From Spirochaetota bacterium (GTDB lineage Bacteria > Spirochaetota > UBA4802 > UBA5368), in contig DATIKU010000056.1 in NCBI GenBank assembly GCA_035477215.1, forward strand, positions 1 through 58,401: a stretch of 58,401 bases of DNA, in the 5' to 3' direction. The notes beneath the pieces were generated by a model. The model searched no databases. It saw nothing but the letters and a program-made list of their open reading frames with translations, and was not told the origin of the DNA. Positions 8,515-21,182 of this stretch are shown here, in pieces. A program made the translations under genes and the position numbers. How positions within the stretch are numbered: the first letter of the stretch is position 1; every line of letters starts with the position of its first letter.

Positions 8515-9189
8515 CTATTCATAACGCAGGATAAGCGCCACGTCGCCGAACATCTCCAGGCCACCGTTTGATCCCTTGTAGTTAAAATGGAGATCGTTAT
8601 CGGTTGAATAGTTGACTTCCACGAAGTTGTTCCTCGCTCCCGTGGAGAGCCCGAGCGAGATCCTTTCGGAAAGGTGTGCGTTGAGGCCGAGTATCGCGCC
8701 TATGCTCGCGAAGGTCTCGATGTATTTCATGCCCAATTTTCCCGCATAGGAGTACGATCCCCTGGCGTTACCCAGTCCGAGCTGCGGGCCGAGCCACAGG
8801 CGCATCGAATCGGTGCGGACCAGGCCGAAACCGAAGGAATGATACATGTGGTATTCGGTCAGGCCGATGGATTTACTGTACTGCGTACCATCGATCGAAA
8901 GGCTGCCGGTTGCGATTCCAAGCTGAAGCCGGTAATTGAACAATTTGTCCTTTGCCACGGCCGTGTCGATCAACAGGCCGAATCCGAAGAGGCTCCGCTC
9001 GGCATCCGCATCCTCCTCCCAGCCCAGCAGCATAGGATCAGGATCGAGATAATCACTGTTGAGCTCGGCTGACGCCGTTTTATATTGCCCGTATATCCCG
9101 AAGCTGAGCGCAGAGGCGCTTCGCGCAAACATACCGGTGAAAAAAATAACCGTGAACAGGAAAACTGGAAAACCCGACGTTTTCTTCAT
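8515..9189 (-). CDS. Probable outer-membrane beta-barrel protein
   Basis: 224 residues from ATG 9189, preceded by GGAGGATGTGACT. A signal peptide occupies residues 1-28 (KKTSGF, hydrophobic core, ASA). The mature region shows alternating hydrophobic strands, GFGLLIDTAV, LGLSTG and a C-terminal strand ending LILRYE, as in small eight-stranded barrels. No family is recognised. It lies downstream of another barrel-like gene on the same strand, with a GC-rich hairpin between them. Function unknown. Confidence 0.7.
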   Translation of the reverse strand: MKKTSGFPVFLFTVIFFTGMFARSASALSFGIYGQYKTASAELNSDYLDPDPMLLGWEEDADAERSLFGFGLLIDTAVAKDKLFNYRLQLGIATGSLSIDGTQYSKSIGLTEYHMYHSFGFGLVRTDSMRLWLGPQLGLGNARGSYSYAGKLGMKYIETFASIGAILGLNAHLSERISLGLSTGARNNFVEVNYSTDNDLHFNYKGSNGGLEMFGDVALILRYE

Positions 9190-9251
9190 AGTCACATCCT
9201 CCGGAAAATGAACATACCCCGATGGACAGGGGTGAGCATACATGAAGGCGC

Positions 9252-9276
9252 GGGCCCCGGCCTGCGGCCGGGGTCC
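9252..9276 (-). repeat. GC-rich intergenic hairpin between two barrel genes
   Basis: GGGCCCCGGCC (9252-9262) and GGCCGGGGTCC (9266-9276) form an 11-bp stem with a 3-base loop and one non-Watson-Crick pair. It follows the stop codon of the upstream gene (9290) in the direction of transcription and has no T-run. It may give differential expression of the two genes. Confidence 0.55.
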
Positions 9277-9289
9277 GCCGGATATCCCG

Positions 9290-10045
9290 TCAGAAAGCGA
9301 GACCCAGGCCGACATACAGGCTGACGCCGCTCAATCCGGCCGTAAGCGCCGAACCGTCCTCGTTGACAAGCCAGACGCCGTTCTTTTCGAATTTATCGAA
9401 CTCGACGTATCTGCCCATCAGGCCACCGTAAATAATGGCCGAACCGGACAGCACATGGTTGTATTCAATCTTCGCATGATACCCGATCGCGGTATTCTTT
9501 AACGTCATTGAATCGCCGAAATCGGGAGGAATCGAAACCTTGTCCTCTATCTCCATTTTCAGTGTTGCCATGTAGTACCCGGCCCCCGCGCCGAACACCA
9601 GGTAACCCGAGTCGCTCACCGCTTTCCGGTAATAGAGGGTACCGGTGACCGGGATCACGTTGAGCGTCAACGTGCACGTGGCGGAGTCCGCCCACGACTT
9701 CGATTCCACTTTCGATTCGGCGCGTGTCGTATAAAATCCCCCGGACGCGCCCAGACCGACGGACCCAAGGAACAACCTGGGCTCGAGTTCCGCACCGAGG
9801 GCCACGTTCGCCGAAGAATCATCGGATTTGAACGAATTCGATCCCACGACGCCATTAAGATCATCCGCCAGTTCACCACCCAGCCATTTGGTCCAGTCCG
9901 ACATGTCCGGATTATGCGCGTAGCCTATTCCGAACTGACCGAGTATCTGGAAACTGGTCCCCTCGGTGTTTTCTTCGGCGAAGGAAACCGACGAAACGAG
10001 CACGACCGAAAGCACGAACGACAGAAAAGCGTACCGCATTTTCAT
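9290..10045 (-). CDS. Probable outer-membrane beta-barrel protein
   Basis: 251 residues from ATG 10045, with AGGAGA at 10057-10052. Signal peptide residues 1-23 end SVSFA. The mature part has acidic turns and repeated amphipathic strands (LFLGSVGLGASGGFYTT, YLVFGAGAGYYMA) and ends VSLYVGLGLAF, a typical C-terminal barrel strand finishing with Phe. This C-terminal Phe is the recognition feature for Bam insertion. Family not recognised. It heads a two-gene minus-strand unit and is divergent from the secreted protein gene at 10564. Confidence 0.72.
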   Translation of the reverse strand: MKMRYAFLSFVLSVVLVSSVSFAEENTEGTSFQILGQFGIGYAHNPDMSDWTKWLGGELADDLNGVVGSNSFKSDDSSANVALGAELEPRLFLGSVGLGASGGFYTTRAESKVESKSWADSATCTLTLNVIPVTGTLYYRKAVSDSGYLVFGAGAGYYMATLKMEIEDKVSIPPDFGDSMTLKNTAIGYHAKIEYNHVLSGSAIIYGGLMGRYVEFDKFEKNGVWLVNEDGSALTAGLSGVSLYVGLGLAF

Positions 10046-10159
10046 TATTATTCTCCTGTTAAAAATTGTTCGAGCCGTCGCACAGTCCGGAAGCGGCAAT
10101 TTCACCCATCTCCGGCGATAACTGGCATTTACCGTTCAGGTTATGCGATACTCTTATTT

Positions 10160-11677: not shown

Positions 11678-12445
11678 ATGCTTAAAAAGAGGATCGAGGA
11701 CGATATCTATATTCTGACCATCGGCAACGGCAAGACCAATTCACTTACCGCCGAGTTCTACACCGAGCTTCGGGAGATACTGAACGAGGTCAACAACAAC
11801 CCGTCGCCCAAGGGGATCATTTTCACCGGCGAGGGGCGTTTCTTTTCATCGGGATTCGATCTGCCCATGTTTCTTTCGTTTAAAAATTCGAAGGAAGTCG
11901 CGAATTTTTTCACCTCGCTCGAGGAGCCGGTGCTGGTCGACCTGTTCATGTGCAAAAAGCCCGTCATCGCCGCGCTCAACGGCCACACCGTCGCCGGCGG
12001 GCTCATCATCGCCATGGCATGCGACTACCGCATCGCCACGCCGAACCCGAAAGCGAAATACGGAATGAGCGAAATCAAGATCGGCCTGCCGCTCTCCGTG
12101 GCCCAGGGCGAGATCGTCCGCTTCGGCATGTCCAACGACAAAAACTACCGCGACCTGGTATACTTCGGCAGCATGATGGACATCAACCAGGCGCGCGAGA
12201 AGAACATCGTCGACGAGGTCGTCGAGGAGGCCGAGCTCATCAACCGCGCCAAGCAGCTGGTTTCGCTGTTTATCGACAATCCCGGCCGCGCGTTCACGCC
12301 CATCAAAAACCTCTACCGCAGGCCGCTCGCGGAGCGGATGCAAAAGGGCATCGCCGAACTCGACTGGGAAGAGAGCCTCGGCTGCTTCTTCAAGGAGGAC
12401 GTGCGGGCCACCCTGGAGTTTGTGCAGGCGAGCATGGCGAAGTAG
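11678..12445 (+). CDS. Enoyl-CoA hydratase/isomerase-family protein
   Basis: 255 residues from ATG 11678 preceded by AGGGAGGAG. This is a crotonase fold: oxyanion-hole segments GEGRFFSSGFDL and LNGHTVAGGLIIAMACDYRIA, followed by MSEIKIGLPL, where crotonases place a catalytic Glu. The C-terminal helices (RAKQL, EESLGCFF) match the trimerisation region. Family members hydrate or isomerise acyl-CoA esters. The second usual catalytic Glu position is not clearly conserved, so delta-3,delta-2-isomerase or another activity is possible. It is 15 bases upstream of the membrane/cNMP gene and may be cotranscribed. Confidence 0.85.
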   Translation: MLKKRIEDDIYILTIGNGKTNSLTAEFYTELREILNEVNNNPSPKGIIFTGEGRFFSSGFDLPMFLSFKNSKEVANFFTSLEEPVLVDLFMCKKPVIAALNGHTVAGGLIIAMACDYRIATPNPKAKYGMSEIKIGLPLSVAQGEIVRFGMSNDKNYRDLVYFGSMMDINQAREKNIVDEVVEEAELINRAKQLVSLFIDNPGRAFTPIKNLYRRPLAERMQKGIAELDWEESLGCFFKEDVRATLEFVQASMAK

Positions 12446-12460
12446 GTAAATACCCGATCA

Positions 12461-15400
12461 ATGGACATCAGGAAGGCGGGATGGCGTCTGTTTTCGATCC
12501 GGCAGGACGAATTCGGCTACGCCGTCCCGCTTTTCGCGCTCTACCTGCTCTCCGGTTGTTTCTACGCGACCGGCCAGATATTCACCGAAACGATCTTTCT
12601 CAAAACCTACGGTGCGCCGGGACTCTCGCGCTTCTTCGTTTATAACGGCATCGCGCTCATCGCGGGCGGGCTGATGTACAACCTCTTTCTTCTGAAAGTC
12701 TCGCTGCGCCGCGGCTACCTCGTTCTCATCGTGCTCTTTACCGGGCTCATCACGGCGGCCCTGCTCGAGCGCTTCCGCGGAGAGAAATGGCTGCCGTTCG
12801 CGCTGTACATGGGGAACTACCTGTTCACCTTTTTCCTGGACATGCATTTCTTCAACTTCATCTTCCGCTACCTTTCGCTTCGAAACTCGCGCCGCATCAT
12901 CCCGTTCCTCATGGGGGGGGGGAAGCTCGGCGGGATCCTCGCCGGGGGTCTCATCTTCGGCCTGCTTTCCGACGATGTAGCGCAACTCGGCATCATCCTG
13001 TGGGCCTCGTGCGGCGCGCTGATGCTTGTGCCGCTCCTGGCCCTCCGGCCGCCCGCCGGAGGCGGCGGCCCGGAGGGCCGACGGGAGAGCGAACTCCTGC
13101 CCGACATGCGCATCGTTGAAAAGCTCGTACGCAAGGTGCGCGTCGCGCTCCGCTTTCCGCTTTTCGCCTGGTCCATACTGGCGGTCTTCGCGATGTCCAT
13201 CGCCAACCAGATCGCCGAGTTTTATTTCGCCGGTATATTCAACAGGGTTTTCACCACCGGAAGGGAGCTCGCGGCCTTCCTGAGCGCCTATACCGTCGGC
13301 TCGGACCTGCTGACCCTTGGCCTCCAGCTGTTCGTCGTATCGCGCGTCATCCGGGGCGCCGGGGTGGGAAGGGTTAACTCCGTATATCCCGCGTCCTTCC
13401 TCGGACTGGTCCTTCTTGCCGCCGCCTGGCCCGGACTGGCCGCGGGCATCATGCTGCGTTTCTTCCGCAAGAACCTGAGCATCCTCTTCCGCATGCCCGC
13501 GTTTAACATCATCATGGCGGCCTCCCCGTCCGAACGAATGGCCGAGGTCAAATCCTTCATCACCGGCATCATAAGCCCGCTGGGAATGATCGCCGGCGGC
13601 GGCTGTATCCTCCTCATCCACGATTATCTTGCCCCCGGCGCGGGCTACGCGCTGGGTGCGGGCGTCGGGGCGGTCTACCTCGGCGTTACGCTGTTTCAGA
13701 ACCGGGCGTATCTTTCCTCGCTCAGAAAACGTCTCTCGATAGGCTCGGCGTACGCAAACGCGTCTGCGCTGATGCCCCAGGACGGACTGCCGCCGCACGG
13801 CGACGACGCCGGAAGGGTCTTCATCGCCGAGGCCTTCTTTAACGAGAACCCGTCGGTCGAGCGCGCCGCCGATCTCGCCCCGTTGTACGACGGGCTTTCA
13901 CGGGAAACGAAAGAGGGCATGCTCGATCTTTTCTCGTCGACACGCACCGAGCCGTTCGAGGCGGTCATACACCGTGCGCTCGGCGACGGCGAGCCATCGG
14001 TGCGGATACGGGCGCTCGGGCTCATCGCCGGGAGGCCCCTGGCGGAGCGGAGGAGGCTCATCGACACCCATTTAAGACCTTCGCTCGAAGGAGAGTGGCG
14101 CGCCGCCATGCTGATCCTTGCCGGTGAAGGGCCCGTAGCGGCCACCGGCCTTGACCCCGACAGCTTCGCCCTCCAGAGCCTGCACGAAATCGGCGCCATG
14201 GTGCGCGCGCGGGAGTGCGACCCGGTCGAGTTCCTGGCCCTGTGCCGGGTGCTTCACCCGGGATATTATCTCGACCGCCTGGTCGACCTTGCGGTCGAGA
14301 CGCGCCAGATCGCGCTCTTCGACGCGATCATCCCGCACGCCGACAGCCTGACCAGATCGAAGGCGCGCAGGGTGATGTACGCCTTCCGCGACGCCACCCC
14401 CGGAAGGCTTGCCGACTTCTTCTCTATGGCCGACGCCCTCTCCGAAATGGACCGCGCCTCGCTCCTCGACCTGAGACCCGCCCTTTCGGCTGCCCACATA
14501 ACTCTCCTCTTCCAGCCCGATGAAAAGGTCCGCTCGACGGTCTTTCGCCGCCTGGCAAGCCGCAAAAGCTTCAGCCAGAAATACAACTATCTCAATTACC
14601 TGGTCAGCATAGGGGTGCCTGCCGTGAAGGAGATGGAGTCCTTTCTCGACTACGAGATCGACACCATTGTACGCCTGAAGCGGCTGCGCTCCTCGATAGA
14701 AGGGGCACCCGAAAACGATACCGCGGGGACCCTGCTCGAATTCATAAACATGACGCTCACGGACACCGTCGAGCTCCACAAGCACCTCATGCTCAAGGCG
14801 CTCGGCGCCATCACGGGGGCCGATCTTGACAGGTTGTACGAATCGAGCCTGCTGCTTCGCGACAGAGAGCTCGACGAGTATCTTCTGGAATATATCGACG
14901 CATCGGGAAAGGCCGGAAAGCGCGCGCTCGCCGTCCTCGAGGACGCCGGACGGTCCGCGGACACGAGCGGCGCGAAGACCGGCCACACGACGGCCGAGAT
15001 GCTCTGGGCCGTCTCCGAAAAGAACAGGCAGTTTCTTCCTGAAATACGCGACGCCATGCGACATTGCGCGACCGTGCTTTCGCGCGGCGAAGCGCAGAAT
15101 GCAGAATCGACACGGGAGGCTGAAATGGACTCTCTCATAGAAAAAATAGTGTTTCTGAAAAAGAACGTTTTATTCCGCGATCTCAAGGTCAACGAGCTCA
15201 TCCGTATCGCGGCCATCACCAGGGAGATCGATCTCGCCGCGGACCGCACCGTTATTGCCGAGGGCGATATGGGCGACGAACTGTTTATGGTGTACGAGGG
15301 CGAGGTGCTGGTCCACACGGGCGGCAGGACGCTCGACCGGCTGGGCGCCGGCGATTGCCTTGGCGAGCTCTCGATCATCGATCGCGAGCCTCGCAGCGCG

Positions 15401-15541
15401 AGTGCCGTAACCACGAAGCCCTCGCGTTTGCTCGCCATTCGCCGCGAGGATTTTCTGTTGACACTGAAGGAAAATCCATCCATATCGATAAGCGTGATGC
15501 AGGTTATCACGCGGCGACTGCGGAAGATGATAGCGTCATAA
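12461..15541 (+). CDS. Membrane transporter-like/HEAT/cNMP-binding fusion protein
   Basis: 1026 residues from ATG 12461; the ribosome site is weak. Residues about 15-410 have some ten to twelve hydrophobic segments and resemble the nucleotide transporter (NTT)/MFS fold, with a GGGKLGGILAGG loop. Residues about 420-890 are soluble, helical and repeat-like (SVERAADLAPLYDGLS, EPSVRIRALGLI), as in HEAT repeats. Residues about 895-1026 form a cyclic-nucleotide-binding domain: IAEGDMGDELFMVYEGEV, and the phosphate-binding cassette GELSIIDREPRSASAV with its conserved Arg. Similar three-part proteins occur in Leptospira-type and related bacteria with unknown substrates. It is probably an inner-membrane sensor or transporter gated by cAMP or cGMP. 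Confidence 0.85.
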   Translation: MDIRKAGWRLFSIRQDEFGYAVPLFALYLLSGCFYATGQIFTETIFLKTYGAPGLSRFFVYNGIALIAGGLMYNLFLLKVSLRRGYLVLIVLFTGLITAALLERFRGEKWLPFALYMGNYLFTFFLDMHFFNFIFRYLSLRNSRRIIPFLMGGGKLGGILAGGLIFGLLSDDVAQLGIILWASCGALMLVPLLALRPPAGGGGPEGRRESELLPDMRIVEKLVRKVRVALRFPLFAWSILAVFAMSIANQIAEFYFAGIFNRVFTTGRELAAFLSAYTVGSDLLTLGLQLFVVSRVIRGAGVGRVNSVYPASFLGLVLLAAAWPGLAAGIMLRFFRKNLSILFRMPAFNIIMAASPSERMAEVKSFITGIISPLGMIAGGGCILLIHDYLAPGAGYALGAGVGAVYLGVTLFQNRAYLSSLRKRLSIGSAYANASALMPQDGLPPHGDDAGRVFIAEAFFNENPSVERAADLAPLYDGLSRETKEGMLDLFSSTRTEPFEAVIHRALGDGEPSVRIRALGLIAGRPLAERRRLIDTHLRPSLEGEWRAAMLILAGEGPVAATGLDPDSFALQSLHEIGAMVRARECDPVEFLALCRVLHPGYYLDRLVDLAVETRQIALFDAIIPHADSLTRSKARRVMYAFRDATPGRLADFFSMADALSEMDRASLLDLRPALSAAHITLLFQPDEKVRSTVFRRLASRKSFSQKYNYLNYLVSIGVPAVKEMESFLDYEIDTIVRLKRLRSSIEGAPENDTAGTLLEFINMTLTDTVELHKHLMLKALGAITGADLDRLYESSLLLRDRELDEYLLEYIDASGKAGKRALAVLEDAGRSADTSGAKTGHTTAEMLWAVSEKNRQFLPEIRDAMRHCATVLSRGEAQNAESTREAEMDSLIEKIVFLKKNVLFRDLKVNELIRIAAITREIDLAADRTVIAEGDMGDELFMVYEGEVLVHTGGRTLDRLGAGDCLGELSIIDREPRSASAVTTKPSRLLAIRREDFLLTLKENPSISISVMQVITRRLRKMIAS

Positions 15542-15562: not shown

Positions 15563-16933
15563 ATGGCAGTGCTCGGAGGGAAGGGCGTCCGGACCCACGG
15601 CGCGCTAAGATCTGCGATGTGCGCACTTTCCCTTGCGTGCGCCCTCACCGTCGTCGCCCTTGCGCTCCGCGGAGAAAACGCCCGACTCTTCGGCGAGGAG
15701 CCCCTTAAAGAGAAACCCGCCGCAGACACTTCCCCGGACAAGCCCCCTGCCGCAAAGAAAAGGGCCGTTAGAAAAATCGTCGACACCATATCGACGGGCG
15801 AGCTGTACAAACAGCGGGAAAAGCAGGAGAAGCGCCGGGTCGAATCCGGTCCCGGGCGCGACCACGAGGACCTTTCCTCCATGCACAAGAGCGCGAGCGA
15901 GGAGATCGAATCCATCATCGTCTTCCTGGGCGAGATTCCGGCCACCGGCGGCAGAAAGGCGCTGTACGCCCCGGTCTTCCTCTCGGAGAGCAAGGGCATT
16001 TTCGGCACGGGTACGGATTTCTCGCTTAGATGGGTCGGCTACAAGCTCTCGACGCGCTTCACTCAGAAGCGGTTTCCGTGGGACAACACGACGCTCAGCG
16101 AAACGCTGGTGGGCTCCTTCCTGTACGCGTCGGGCACCAACATCGGCTTTCAGGGAAATGCCGTCGTTGAGGAACGGCGCTTCTACACGAACTACACCTC
16201 GCAGATCGTCACGTTGAAGGTCGGCCTTCCGTTCAGGGCCTACGCGGGCTTCACGCTCGATTCGCGGCAGTATTTCTTCGTGCGGCGCAATGCACCTGAA
16301 GATTTCATCATGCCGAACGACCACATTAACCTATTTCCCCGCATCGACCTGGGAATCGAGCGCCTCACCGAAAAGGGGATCGACCAGATCAAACAGGGCT
16401 TCAGCCTCGAGTCATGGGCCGGGTACGGCATCCGGAACAAATGGGAGAGATGGGGAGAGGAACCCATCCTTGAAGATACGACCTGCGCGCGCACCTTCGC
16501 AATCTACTCCTGCGAGTTCACCGCGGGGGCGCTCTTTCTGAGAACTCACAACCTGGTATTCAGGGCGCATTATAAAGGAGGCATCGACAACGATTTCCTC
16601 ACGCGCCCCCGCTTCGGCGGCACCATTGACAACGCCAACCTCGACGTAGTCCACGGTTTCACCGTGGACAATTTCCGGGTGGAGAGCTTCGGCCTGGTAA
16701 ATCTGAAATATGCTTTCGACGCGGCCTCCCGCCTGCGGATCAACGTCTTCCTCGATTATGCGCGCATCTTCGACCCGGACCCCGAACACGTGGCCGGCTC
16801 GGGCTACGGCGTTAGAATTCTCGCCGTCGGCGGCCTTCCGGTATGGATCACCCACGGCATCGGGCGGCGGGAATTCCCCGGAAACGCTCGATGGGAACAC
16901 GTCGTCATGGTCATGACCGCCGCCGGCTGGTAA
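15563..16933 (+). CDS. Outer-membrane beta-barrel protein with coiled N-terminus
   Basis: 456 residues from ATG 15563, 21 bases after the preceding stop. A hydrophobic signal segment lies at residues 17-36; a start at ATG 15617 is also possible. It is followed by a Pro/Lys-rich and charged helical linker (KQREKQEKRRVE). From about residue 130 the chain is beta-rich with aromatic girdle-like alternation (FSLRWVGYKLSTRFT, FYTNYTSQIVTLKVG). The last third resembles the surface-antigen part of Omp85-type barrels only loosely. An outer-membrane role is likely; substrate and family are not recognised. Probably cotranscribed with the cNMP-binding protein. Confidence 0.7.
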   Translation: MAVLGGKGVRTHGALRSAMCALSLACALTVVALALRGENARLFGEEPLKEKPAADTSPDKPPAAKKRAVRKIVDTISTGELYKQREKQEKRRVESGPGRDHEDLSSMHKSASEEIESIIVFLGEIPATGGRKALYAPVFLSESKGIFGTGTDFSLRWVGYKLSTRFTQKRFPWDNTTLSETLVGSFLYASGTNIGFQGNAVVEERRFYTNYTSQIVTLKVGLPFRAYAGFTLDSRQYFFVRRNAPEDFIMPNDHINLFPRIDLGIERLTEKGIDQIKQGFSLESWAGYGIRNKWERWGEEPILEDTTCARTFAIYSCEFTAGALFLRTHNLVFRAHYKGGIDNDFLTRPRFGGTIDNANLDVVHGFTVDNFRVESFGLVNLKYAFDAASRLRINVFLDYARIFDPDPEHVAGSGYGVRILAVGGLPVWITHGIGRREFPGNARWEHVVMVMTAAGW

Positions 16934-17996: not shown

Positions 17997-20016
17997 GTTT
18001 TCCATTTCCTCCGGCGACGAGACGGACGACGCCCCGGGCGAAATAAAACGAAACAGGCTCAGCCTGGCCGAGTCCCTCAAAAGCCGGAAATACCTCCCGG
18101 TGGCGGTCATATCGGGAATCGCCGTGCTGGCCGTCTCCGCCATCCTTCTGCTCACCGCCTACTACAAGAAACCGTCGCTGTTCACTCCATCCGATAAAAC
18201 GGCGGGCGAGTCCATCTACTCGGACACCGACAAAAAGGAGCTCCCCGCAGGCGCGGTCGAGAACATCCATCTCAAAAGGGGCATCGAAAGCTATCACAAG
18301 GGATATTTCAACGACGCGCTGGCCGAGTTCGCCGAGGTGGTCGAGTCCGGTGCCTCCAACGAGGAAAAGGCCATGGCGCTCACCTATGCGGGCATCATCC
18401 ACGATGACAAGGGCGATTTCAACAAAGCGATAGAAAGCTACAACCGGGCCCTGACCTACGACCGTAAAAATCCGGTGATCTACCGGAACATCGCCCTGGC
18501 CTACCGGCGCAAGAAAGACTACGACAAGGCGGCGGAGTTCGCCGAAAAGGCGGTCGACACCGACTCGGGCAATATTCACAACAGGGTGCTGCGCGGCAAC
18601 ATCTACTTCGAACAGGGCCGCTATGCCGACGCCGCGCGCGAATACGAGGCCGCGCTCGAAACCTCACCCGAGGACCCGCCCGCGCTCTATAACCTGGCCA
18701 TCGCCCTCCTCAAAAAAGGCGACGAGGTCTCCGCAATCGAATATCTCAAGCGCGCCGGCGCCGCCGATAAAATCGGACAGGTCGCCTCGCGCGCGTACGG
18801 ACGGCTCGGCGTTCTCTTCACCGAGAGGCGCGACTATCCACAGGCCGAAAAATTCCTGGTGCTCGCCGTCTCCATCGCCCCTCGCGACGCCGTCAATCAT
18901 TACAACCTGGGAATAGTCTATTCCCGGCAGAACAAAAACGAAAAGGCACTGGAGGCCTTCGTCAAGGCCGGCGAGCTCGGCCACGGCGACGTGGCGATGC
19001 TCGAGAGCCTGGGCGAGGCCTATTACTCGCTGAAAGACTACGACCGCAGCCTCGAGACCTACAACCGCCTGCTCGGCACCTCGAAGCGAAACGCGCGAGT
19101 TCTTTCACGCATCGCCGAAATATATTACGACAAGGGCGACCTGGACCGGGCCTACGAGTTCTATCACAGGATTACCACCTACGAACCGGCCTCGGAAAAC
19201 GCGCGCGTGGCCTATCTCAACATGGGCAACATCCTCGACGACGCCCAGCGCTTCGAGGAATCGATCCAGGCATACGAGAAGGCGCTGGCCATAAGCCCCA
19301 AGGACGATTCCGCGCTCTACAACCTGGGGATCGCCTACAAGCACGCCGGCAAACCCCAGCTCGCGATTGAATCGTGGAAGAAGGCCGCCGAGCTCAATCC
19401 GGACAATCCCCAGCCATTGCTTGCGCTCGCGGACTTTTACTACGAGAACAACCACTACGACATGGCCATGGACGAATACCAGCGCATACTGCGGCGCTGG
19501 CCGAACATCCAGGAGGGCCACTTCAGCCTGGCCACGATCTATTACAAAAAAAACCTGCTCGATTACGCCCGCGAGGAATACAAGCGCGTCATCGAAATCA
19601 ACGAAAAGTCCGACCTCGCGCGTCGCGCTTACGTTAACCTGGGAATCCTCGCCTCGAAGATCGAGAAGCCGAGCGACGACTCCATGCGAAATGCCGTCGG
19701 CTACGTGCAGAAGGCGCTGCTCCTGAAGCCCGGCGACGCGGAGGCGCTTTTTTCACTTGGGCTTCTGTACGCGAAGAAGGAGATGCACGACAAGGCCATC
19801 GATATCTTCTACCAGGCCGTCCGCGCGACGAACGATCCGAAGGTGATCGCCGAATCGTACAACAACATAGGCAAGTGCTACTTCAAAAAGGGTATGTATA
19901 AAAAGGCCCTGCAGTCCTTCACCAGGGGCATCGAGGAGGATCCCGTCAACGAGGAGCTCCGCATGAACCGCAAGGTGGCGATGCAGGCCTACGAGGAAGA
20001 GCTGGCGCGAAGGTGA
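17974..20016 (+). CDS. Membrane-anchored TPR-repeat protein
   Basis: 680 residues from GTG 17974, which overlaps nusB by 23 bases and has GGAGA directly before it. Residues 1-40 are cytoplasmic and polar, 41-63 form a single transmembrane helix, and the rest is a long solenoid of about 14-16 tetratricopeptide repeats (typical units: AIESYNRALTYD, AIEYLKRAGAAD, AIQAYEKALAISPKDDSALYNLG). The repeat region would be periplasmic. TPR solenoids scaffold protein complexes; no enzymatic domain is seen. Translational overlap with nusB and the following dGTPase suggests one operon but not one function. Confidence 0.9.
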   Translation: MSPITKNRFSISSGDETDDAPGEIKRNRLSLAESLKSRKYLPVAVISGIAVLAVSAILLLTAYYKKPSLFTPSDKTAGESIYSDTDKKELPAGAVENIHLKRGIESYHKGYFNDALAEFAEVVESGASNEEKAMALTYAGIIHDDKGDFNKAIESYNRALTYDRKNPVIYRNIALAYRRKKDYDKAAEFAEKAVDTDSGNIHNRVLRGNIYFEQGRYADAAREYEAALETSPEDPPALYNLAIALLKKGDEVSAIEYLKRAGAADKIGQVASRAYGRLGVLFTERRDYPQAEKFLVLAVSIAPRDAVNHYNLGIVYSRQNKNEKALEAFVKAGELGHGDVAMLESLGEAYYSLKDYDRSLETYNRLLGTSKRNARVLSRIAEIYYDKGDLDRAYEFYHRITTYEPASENARVAYLNMGNILDDAQRFEESIQAYEKALAISPKDDSALYNLGIAYKHAGKPQLAIESWKKAAELNPDNPQPLLALADFYYENNHYDMAMDEYQRILRRWPNIQEGHFSLATIYYKKNLLDYAREEYKRVIEINEKSDLARRAYVNLGILASKIEKPSDDSMRNAVGYVQKALLLKPGDAEALFSLGLLYAKKEMHDKAIDIFYQAVRATNDPKVIAESYNNIGKCYFKKGMYKKALQSFTRGIEEDPVNEELRMNRKVAMQAYEEELARR

Positions 20017-21182
20017 GGGCGATGAAGGGGCCGCACCGGGCATATCTTGAGGAGATGGAGGAATCGTTGCTCGCGCCGTGGGCCGCGCGCTCCGGCCGCT
20101 CCCGCGGCCGGCAGTACCCGGAGCCTTCGCACTCCTATCGCACGGAGTTTCAGCGCGACCGCGAACGCATCATCCACTCCCGCGCGTTCAGAAGGCTTGA
20201 ATACAAGACGCAGGTGTTCGTCAACCACGAGGGCGACCATTACCGCACCCGTCTCACGCACACCATCGAGGTGGCGCAAATCGCGCGGTCCATCGCGCGG
20301 GCGCTCAGGCTCAACGAGGACCTGGCCGAGGCGGTCGCGCTCGCCCACGATCTCGGGCACACGCCCTTCGGCCATTCGGGCGAACGCGCCCTCAACGATC
20401 TCATGGCCGATTCGGGCGGGTTCGAGCACAACCGGCAGAGCCTTCGCGTGGTCGAGAAGCTCGAGGAGCGCTACGGCGACTTCCCGGGGCTCAACCTGAC
20501 CTGGGAGACGCGGGAGGGCATCATCAAGCACTCATCCTCTTACGACCACCCCGAGGCATCGGACTACGCGCCCGCCGAACAGCCGTCCCTCGAGGCGCAG
20601 ATCATCGATCATGCCGACGAAATCGCCTACAACAACCACGACATTGACGACGGTCTCACGTCCCGGCTGCTTGACCTCGACGAGGTGCGGCGGCTTTCAG
20701 TATGGAAAATCGCCGTGACGAGGCGCGGCGGCGACGCGGCGCTGCCCGGTGGACGGAAGCTCCTGGTGAGCGCCGTTATACGGACGATAATAGACCTCCT
20801 GGTGTCCGACCTCATCGACACCACGCGCTCCGCCGTCGCGCGCATGGGGATACAGAGCTATGAGGATGTACGGACGGCATCATGCAAGACCGTCGCGTTC
20901 AGCGCTGAGATCGACGAGGCCAACCGGGAGCTCAAGGAATTTCTCAGGAAATACCTGTACCGGCACTACAGGGTGGTCAGGATGAGCATAAAGGCGCAGA
21001 AGGTGATCAACGATCTGTTCACCCTGTATTACGAGCACCCGAATGCGCTTCCGGAGAGCTATTTCAACCGCATCGAGAGCGACGGGATTCGACAGACCAT
21101 TTCCGATTACATTGCGGGCATGACCGACCGTTACGCGCTCGAGGAACACCAGAAACTTACGGACCCGATGATCCGCGTGTAG
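20013..21182 (+). CDS. dgt: Deoxyguanosinetriphosphate triphosphohydrolase-like HD protein
   Basis: 389 residues if GTG 20013 is used (GTGA overlap with the TPR gene stop); ATG 20022 would give 386 residues. HD-superfamily metal ligands are visible: RLTHTIEVAQI, HDLGHTPFGHSGE and, further on, the EAQIIDHADEIAYNNHDIDDG segment. The N-terminal RTEFQRDRERIIHSRAFRRLEYKTQVF is characteristic of dGTPases. The enzyme releases triphosphate from dNTPs and tunes nucleotide pools. It belongs to the shorter type-2/3 class rather than E. coli Dgt (505 residues), so the preferred substrate may differ. Confidence 0.93.
   Translation: MRAMKGPHRAYLEEMEESLLAPWAARSGRSRGRQYPEPSHSYRTEFQRDRERIIHSRAFRRLEYKTQVFVNHEGDHYRTRLTHTIEVAQIARSIARALRLNEDLAEAVALAHDLGHTPFGHSGERALNDLMADSGGFEHNRQSLRVVEKLEERYGDFPGLNLTWETREGIIKHSSSYDHPEASDYAPAEQPSLEAQIIDHADEIAYNNHDIDDGLTSRLLDLDEVRRLSVWKIAVTRRGGDAALPGGRKLLVSAVIRTIIDLLVSDLIDTTRSAVARMGIQSYEDVRTASCKTVAFSAEIDEANRELKEFLRKYLYRHYRVVRMSIKAQKVINDLFTLYYEHPNALPESYFNRIESDGIRQTISDYIAGMTDRYALEEHQKLTDPMIRV

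Follow-up and report, generated by a model that had tools for sequence, protein, structure and literature searches.

An NTT-like fold without the nucleotide lysines: a spirochaete NTT-HEAT-cNBD fusion that may act as a cyclic-nucleotide-controlled carrier with a linked partner protein

The spirochaete protein P0001 belongs to a family that retains the fold of the ATP/ADP carriers while having lost the lysines with which these bind their nucleotides, and its gene is linked to P0002, a partner gene of no known family. We propose that P0001 is a cyclic-nucleotide-controlled carrier of a solute other than ATP, probably anionic, which works together with the exported P0002, and we assign this reading a probability of about 0.45. 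Among all observations, the partner gene and the loss of the lysines bear most on function; neither was part of the earlier sequence-only reading, which stopped short of the conserved gene directly downstream of P0001. The window (the whole stretch of DNA analysed, 58,401 nucleotides) is one entire contig (C56) from an assembly that totals 3.57 Mb, and the following features of it are discussed here.

11678 to 12445, forward strand: enoyl-CoA hydratase/isomerase gene, a neighbour that remains where the P0001-P0002 pair is absent
12461 to 15541, forward strand: P0001, NTT-HEAT-cNBD fusion of 1026 aa, whole gene
12461 to 13744, forward strand: predicted 12-helix membrane domain with NTT/MFS fold, residues 1-428 (AlphaFold model; Glu253 kept)
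13805 to 15175, forward strand: HEAT-like helical arm, residues about 449-905 (full-length model, profile comparison)
15233 to 15469, forward strand: cyclic-nucleotide-binding domain, residues 925-1003, with the cassette Glu969...Arg978 (Pfam, family alignment)
15563 to 16933, forward strand: P0002, 456 aa, probably exported, C-terminal Trp, no known family, co-occurs with P0001
17025 to 20016, forward strand: ribH, nusB and TPR genes, a conserved flank outside the system

The frame of P0001 starts with ATG 15 nt past the stop of the hydratase gene and runs for 1026 codons plus a stop that lies inside 12461-15541 (+); P0002 begins 21 nt further on and is followed by ribH, nusB and the TPR gene. 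Orthologs from related genomes of the same order are nearly full length at identities from 72% down to about 34%, indicating a conserved gene, and a chance ORF or annotation artefact was ruled out on these grounds. One ortholog (G004:C170, L010) is spread over two frames covering residues 1-739 and 754-1026 at about 90% identity, due to either a frameshift or an assembly error. As the hydratase gene persists in genomes without the pair, it was rejected as a member of the system. The P0001 neighbourhood also conserves a protein with HD and HD_assoc domains (20013-21182, dNTPase-like match). Scanning for promoter-like and terminator-like signals gave counts near chance (2 versus 1.3 expected and 8 versus 5.6 expected, respectively).

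Frame, Pfam and structure models agree on a single chain of 1026 residues with a membrane part, a HEAT-like region and a C-terminal cyclic-nucleotide domain. Thus, the three-part anatomy, the NTT-like fold and the pocket motif of the sequence-only reading stood. The order of domains is not new, however, as NTT-HEAT-cNBD proteins were already published in 2017 for many bacteria (Major, Embley and Williams, 2017; PMC5381601). In the sections of that study drawn on here, the architecture is described as predominantly bacterial with a single origin of the NTT-HEAT fusion, such fusions, some with a cNBD, are listed for free-living bacteria, chlamydiae and oomycetes, an adjustment of ATP uptake by cAMP is suggested for the NTT-HEAT-cNBD proteins, and NTTs are reported to be absent from Spirochaetes (PMC5381601).

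Modelling of residues 1-428 by AlphaFold (12 sequences) led to a bundle of 12 helices with pLDDT 74 and pTM 0.73. When this model was compared with all PDB chains by Foldseek, as the sequence-only reading had proposed, ranks 1-4 were NTT carriers (AtNTT1 9j3m, AtNTT1 9j3l, C. pneumoniae NTT1 9j3n and AtNTT1 9j3j; E 5.5e-8 to 1.0e-6). VIA-align likewise placed NTTs at ranks 1-3 (Z 34.5, 34.1 and 32.9 over 410-411 residues, rmsd 2.8 to 3.1) and above other MFS folds, with LacY next at Z 30.0. A transporter fold was therefore found, in line with the supposed NTT/MFS-like membrane part, and in the model the membrane domain has the fold of the solved NTT structures. Direct sequence searches gave nothing: with a threshold of E<=1, Pfam did not detect TLC (PF03219) in P0001 or in any of the 14 aligned family proteins (A1), and the family profile had no match among PDB sequences. 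A PF03219 search of the source genome gave 0 matches as well, which is uninformative because 0/14 control genomes had any. The assignment was therefore settled by fold and by intermediates. The family profile finds the relative G191:C1 at E 1e-29, a protein that itself scores 57.9 bits against TLC (cut-off 21) and hits AtNTT1 at E 9.2e-9, and a TLC scan of 13 relatives gave seven over the cut-off, three under it and three without a match. Judged by these sequence profiles, NTT homology of P0001 thus holds via intermediates and not by a direct Pfam TLC match. A stand-alone membrane protein of 471 residues from the same order (G025:C57, L079) matches TLC at 40.0 bits and MFS_1 at 40.8 bits and showed no HEAT or cNBD match. 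Two NTT-HEAT relatives from another family of the phylum (L072, L074) are preceded by an ORF that by eye resembles a PLP-type decarboxylase, possibly a different neighbourhood link.

The full-length model (mean pLDDT 77, pTM 0.56) shows paired helices from about residue 449 to 905; at this pTM the placement of the arm relative to the rest is a tentative prediction. HEAT had no Pfam match at E<=1 in P0001, weak HEAT_2 matches occur in 3/14 proteins of the family alignment, and a profile of the arm matches the HEAT_2-bearing region of relatives at E 9.1e-6 (probability 83%, 99 columns). Together, the helices and this profile match bear out the HEAT-like region of 450 residues that had been described. 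The sperm sodium/proton exchanger SLC9C1 appeared at Foldseek rank 1 for the full-length model, yet with TM 0.12 and rmsd near 40, so that this match was not used as evidence of homology.

At the C-terminus, Pfam cNMP_binding (PF00027) matches residues 925-1003 at E 2.8e-16 and 59.7 bits (cut-off 27.5), and the domain was detected in 14/14 proteins of the family alignment. The phosphate-binding cassette of P0001 reads GELSIIDREPRSAS, and its Glu969, Pro977 and Arg978 are invariant in all 14, confirming the conserved arginine of the pocket seen before. Judging from these residues, and from matches of the domain profile to the domains of PKG, PKA-R, CRP-type proteins and MlotiK1, the pocket appears competent for cyclic-nucleotide binding. 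A search for co-occurring cyclases, also suggested earlier, revealed class III cyclase domains in the source genome, five scoring over the Pfam cut-off and one under it, which makes synthesis of a cyclic nucleotide in this organism likely.

For the plant carrier AtNTT1, mutant studies, as far as their results were available here, connect K155 with ADP binding, K527 with ATP binding and E245 with a translocation step (PMC3306366), and K155, E245, E385 and K527 are termed functionally important in the consulted part of a further paper (PMC10654386). AtNTT1 was added to the family alignment at two settings, and a wider alignment was made from 24 spirochaete relatives, comprising 11 members of the 14-protein family alignment and 13 further sequences, with long ones cut to roughly their first 520 residues. 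In all three alignments K155 corresponds to Tyr61, E385 to Glu253 and K527 to Met376 of P0001; E245 aligned to Asn119 in the family alignment or to Tyr120 in the wider one. P0001 therefore keeps E385 alone of these four charged residues. A lysine at the K155 or K527 position was found in 0/24 relatives, the alignment near K155 being uncertain in the most diverged rows, which makes classical ATP/ADP exchange unlikely. The E245 position is acidic in 10/13 of the other relatives and in 0/11 orthologs of the order, the E385 position in 11/13 and 11/11, respectively. Without the ADP- and ATP-binding lysines of plant NTT1, P0001 probably moves another solute, and the invariant Arg333, Lys337 and Arg344, located in the late membrane helix 326-353, may leave room for another anion as substrate.

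The loss of the substrate lysines could also mean that the membrane part does not transport at all but is a receptor for a periplasmic ligand, perhaps presented by P0002, which signals through the HEAT arm and the cNBD. MFS-fold sensors exist, an output function would fit the large size of the cytoplasmic part, and P0002 may reside in the periplasm or the outer membrane. On the other hand, the membrane domain is better conserved (mean column identity 62%) than the arm (43%), its helices carry many invariant polar or charged residues as expected of a working carrier, and neither an output enzyme domain nor a conserved signalling gene adjoins P0001. We therefore regard a receptor as the more doubtful role, to be taken seriously nonetheless. 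Unlikelier still is a nucleotide carrier for ATP, ADP or NAD in which other residues now form the binding site and cAMP would adjust uptake, the latter as proposed for this architecture in the 2017 study, to the extent that it is used here (PMC5381601); the NTT fold of the model and Glu253, kept at the E385 position in every aligned ortholog, are consistent with it, but the missing lysines and the non-acidic E245 position argue against it.

Returning to the cyclic-nucleotide-controlled carrier, its putative partner P0002 had no matches in Pfam, NCBIfam, PHROGs or the PDB sequences, where the best match, at E 0.64, was regarded as chance. Among 46 genomes of the order, the fusion occurs in 17, and P0002 is present in 17/17 of these and in 1/29 of those without the fusion, the latter (G007) being a fragment at a contig end (Fisher p 1e-11, a statistic that ignores kinship). 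G027 was counted by the C-terminal part of the fusion only, because the contig ends inside the gene, and the stand-alone protein of G025 as well as second, distant matches in G005 and G008 were not counted as fusion orthologs. A complete copy of either gene alone was found in 0/46 genomes of the order. Across the sampled phylum P0002 was detected in 18/392 genomes, every one in this order, and no relatives were found elsewhere in the phylum. Both genes are adjacent in 14/17 pairs; they are separated by 6 kb in G015 and by about 39 kb in G011, and the pair of G004 is interrupted by a contig break. Three genomes (G001, G003 and G024) miss the pair as a unit between intact flanks, the upstream hydratase gene being followed directly by ribH with neither P0001 nor P0002 at E 1e-4. 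Since several families share this position of the pair, the simplest history would be that both genes were lost together in more than one lineage. That P0001 and P0002 have no common function and, as neighbours, were inherited and lost together through linkage agrees with a single deletion being able to remove both genes of an adjacent pair and with the blindness of the Fisher test to kinship, but is improbable given that three genomes without the pair keep its flanks on both sides, that two genomes retain both genes although separated, and that no genome of the order has one complete gene without the other.

By eye, the N-termini of the P0002 orthologs resemble signal sequences; a variable linker leads to a conserved domain, whose last residue is Trp or Phe in 15/15 cases. 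Such a C-terminal aromatic residue is typical of many outer-membrane barrels. Strand statistics pointed weakly in this direction: P0002 as a whole scored z 1.0 and its residues 110-456, the conserved part, z 1.9, the 15 full-length P0002 proteins ranged from z -0.2 to 1.9, and the family profile reached z 0.9 (strand count) and z 1.2 (beta moment); seven other proteins of the window gave z -1.8 to -0.2. P0002 is thus probably exported and, from its C-terminal aromatic residue and the weak strand statistics, perhaps an outer-membrane beta-barrel. Elsewhere in the window, two adjacent ORFs on the reverse strand (8515-9315 and 9290-10105) have an exported, beta-rich look by eye with strand z 2.3 and 2.4.

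In the proposed mechanism, P0001 would sit in the inner membrane as a carrier from the NTT branch of the MFS, with a cytoplasmic HEAT arm ending in a cyclic-nucleotide sensor. Class III cyclases would make cAMP (or cGMP), which would bind this sensor, and the bound sensor may alter the activity of the carrier through the HEAT arm. The carrier would move a solute other than ATP, likely an anion, and together with P0002, probably a beta-barrel of the outer membrane or else a beta-rich protein of the periplasm, might move this one solute across the envelope. Transport itself, its substrate and direction, the gating by a cyclic nucleotide, and both where P0002 resides and that it contacts the carrier are what we infer here, and the strongest points against a carrier with a partner are that P0001 may be a receptor and that structural evidence for P0002 is weak. 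Even more tentative, and on balance rather unlikely, is the stronger version of a new two-gene envelope system, in which a cyclic-nucleotide-gated inner-membrane carrier that lost the NTT nucleotide site would cooperate with a dedicated outer-membrane protein of an undescribed family, and cytoplasmic cAMP would govern the passage of one solute through both membranes.

New are a diverged NTT-HEAT-cNBD branch in one order of Spirochaetota, the missing ADP/ATP lysines in the spirochaete relatives and the link to the partner gene P0002. The missing lysines suggest that the idea of cAMP-tuned ATP uptake is ill-suited to the spirochaete members, and the linked partner gene gives a tangible starting point for finding out what these fusions do; a functional study of any NTT-HEAT fusion was not found in the open-licence literature searched, including the available portion of a 2019 diatom review.

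Compared with the fusions of 2017, as characterised in the parts of that study used here, P0001 shares the domain order in one chain and the NTT fold, whereas it comes from a spirochaete branch, is by itself below the Pfam TLC detection limit, has a non-acidic residue at the E245 position and is linked to P0002. With the NTT ATP/ADP carriers (AtNTT1, C. pneumoniae NTT1; 9j3l, 9j3m, 9j3n) it shares the fold and the E385 position, but it lacks K155, E245 and K527, is only 13-14% identical and has a regulatory arm and a sensor added. Its cyclic-nucleotide domain belongs to the family of those in PKG, PKA-R, CRP-type proteins and MlotiK1 and has the same cassette motif, though there the domains are joined to kinase, DNA-binding or channel parts. 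SLC9C1, going by the sources consulted in part, is similar only in the way it works, as a secondary carrier regulated by its cyclic-nucleotide domain, the role proposed for P0001; it differs in the carrier family and in a voltage sensor between the parts. Should the gating proposed for P0001 hold, the spirochaete protein would provide a counterpart among bacteria to SLC9C1, in which a cyclic-nucleotide domain likewise regulates a carrier.
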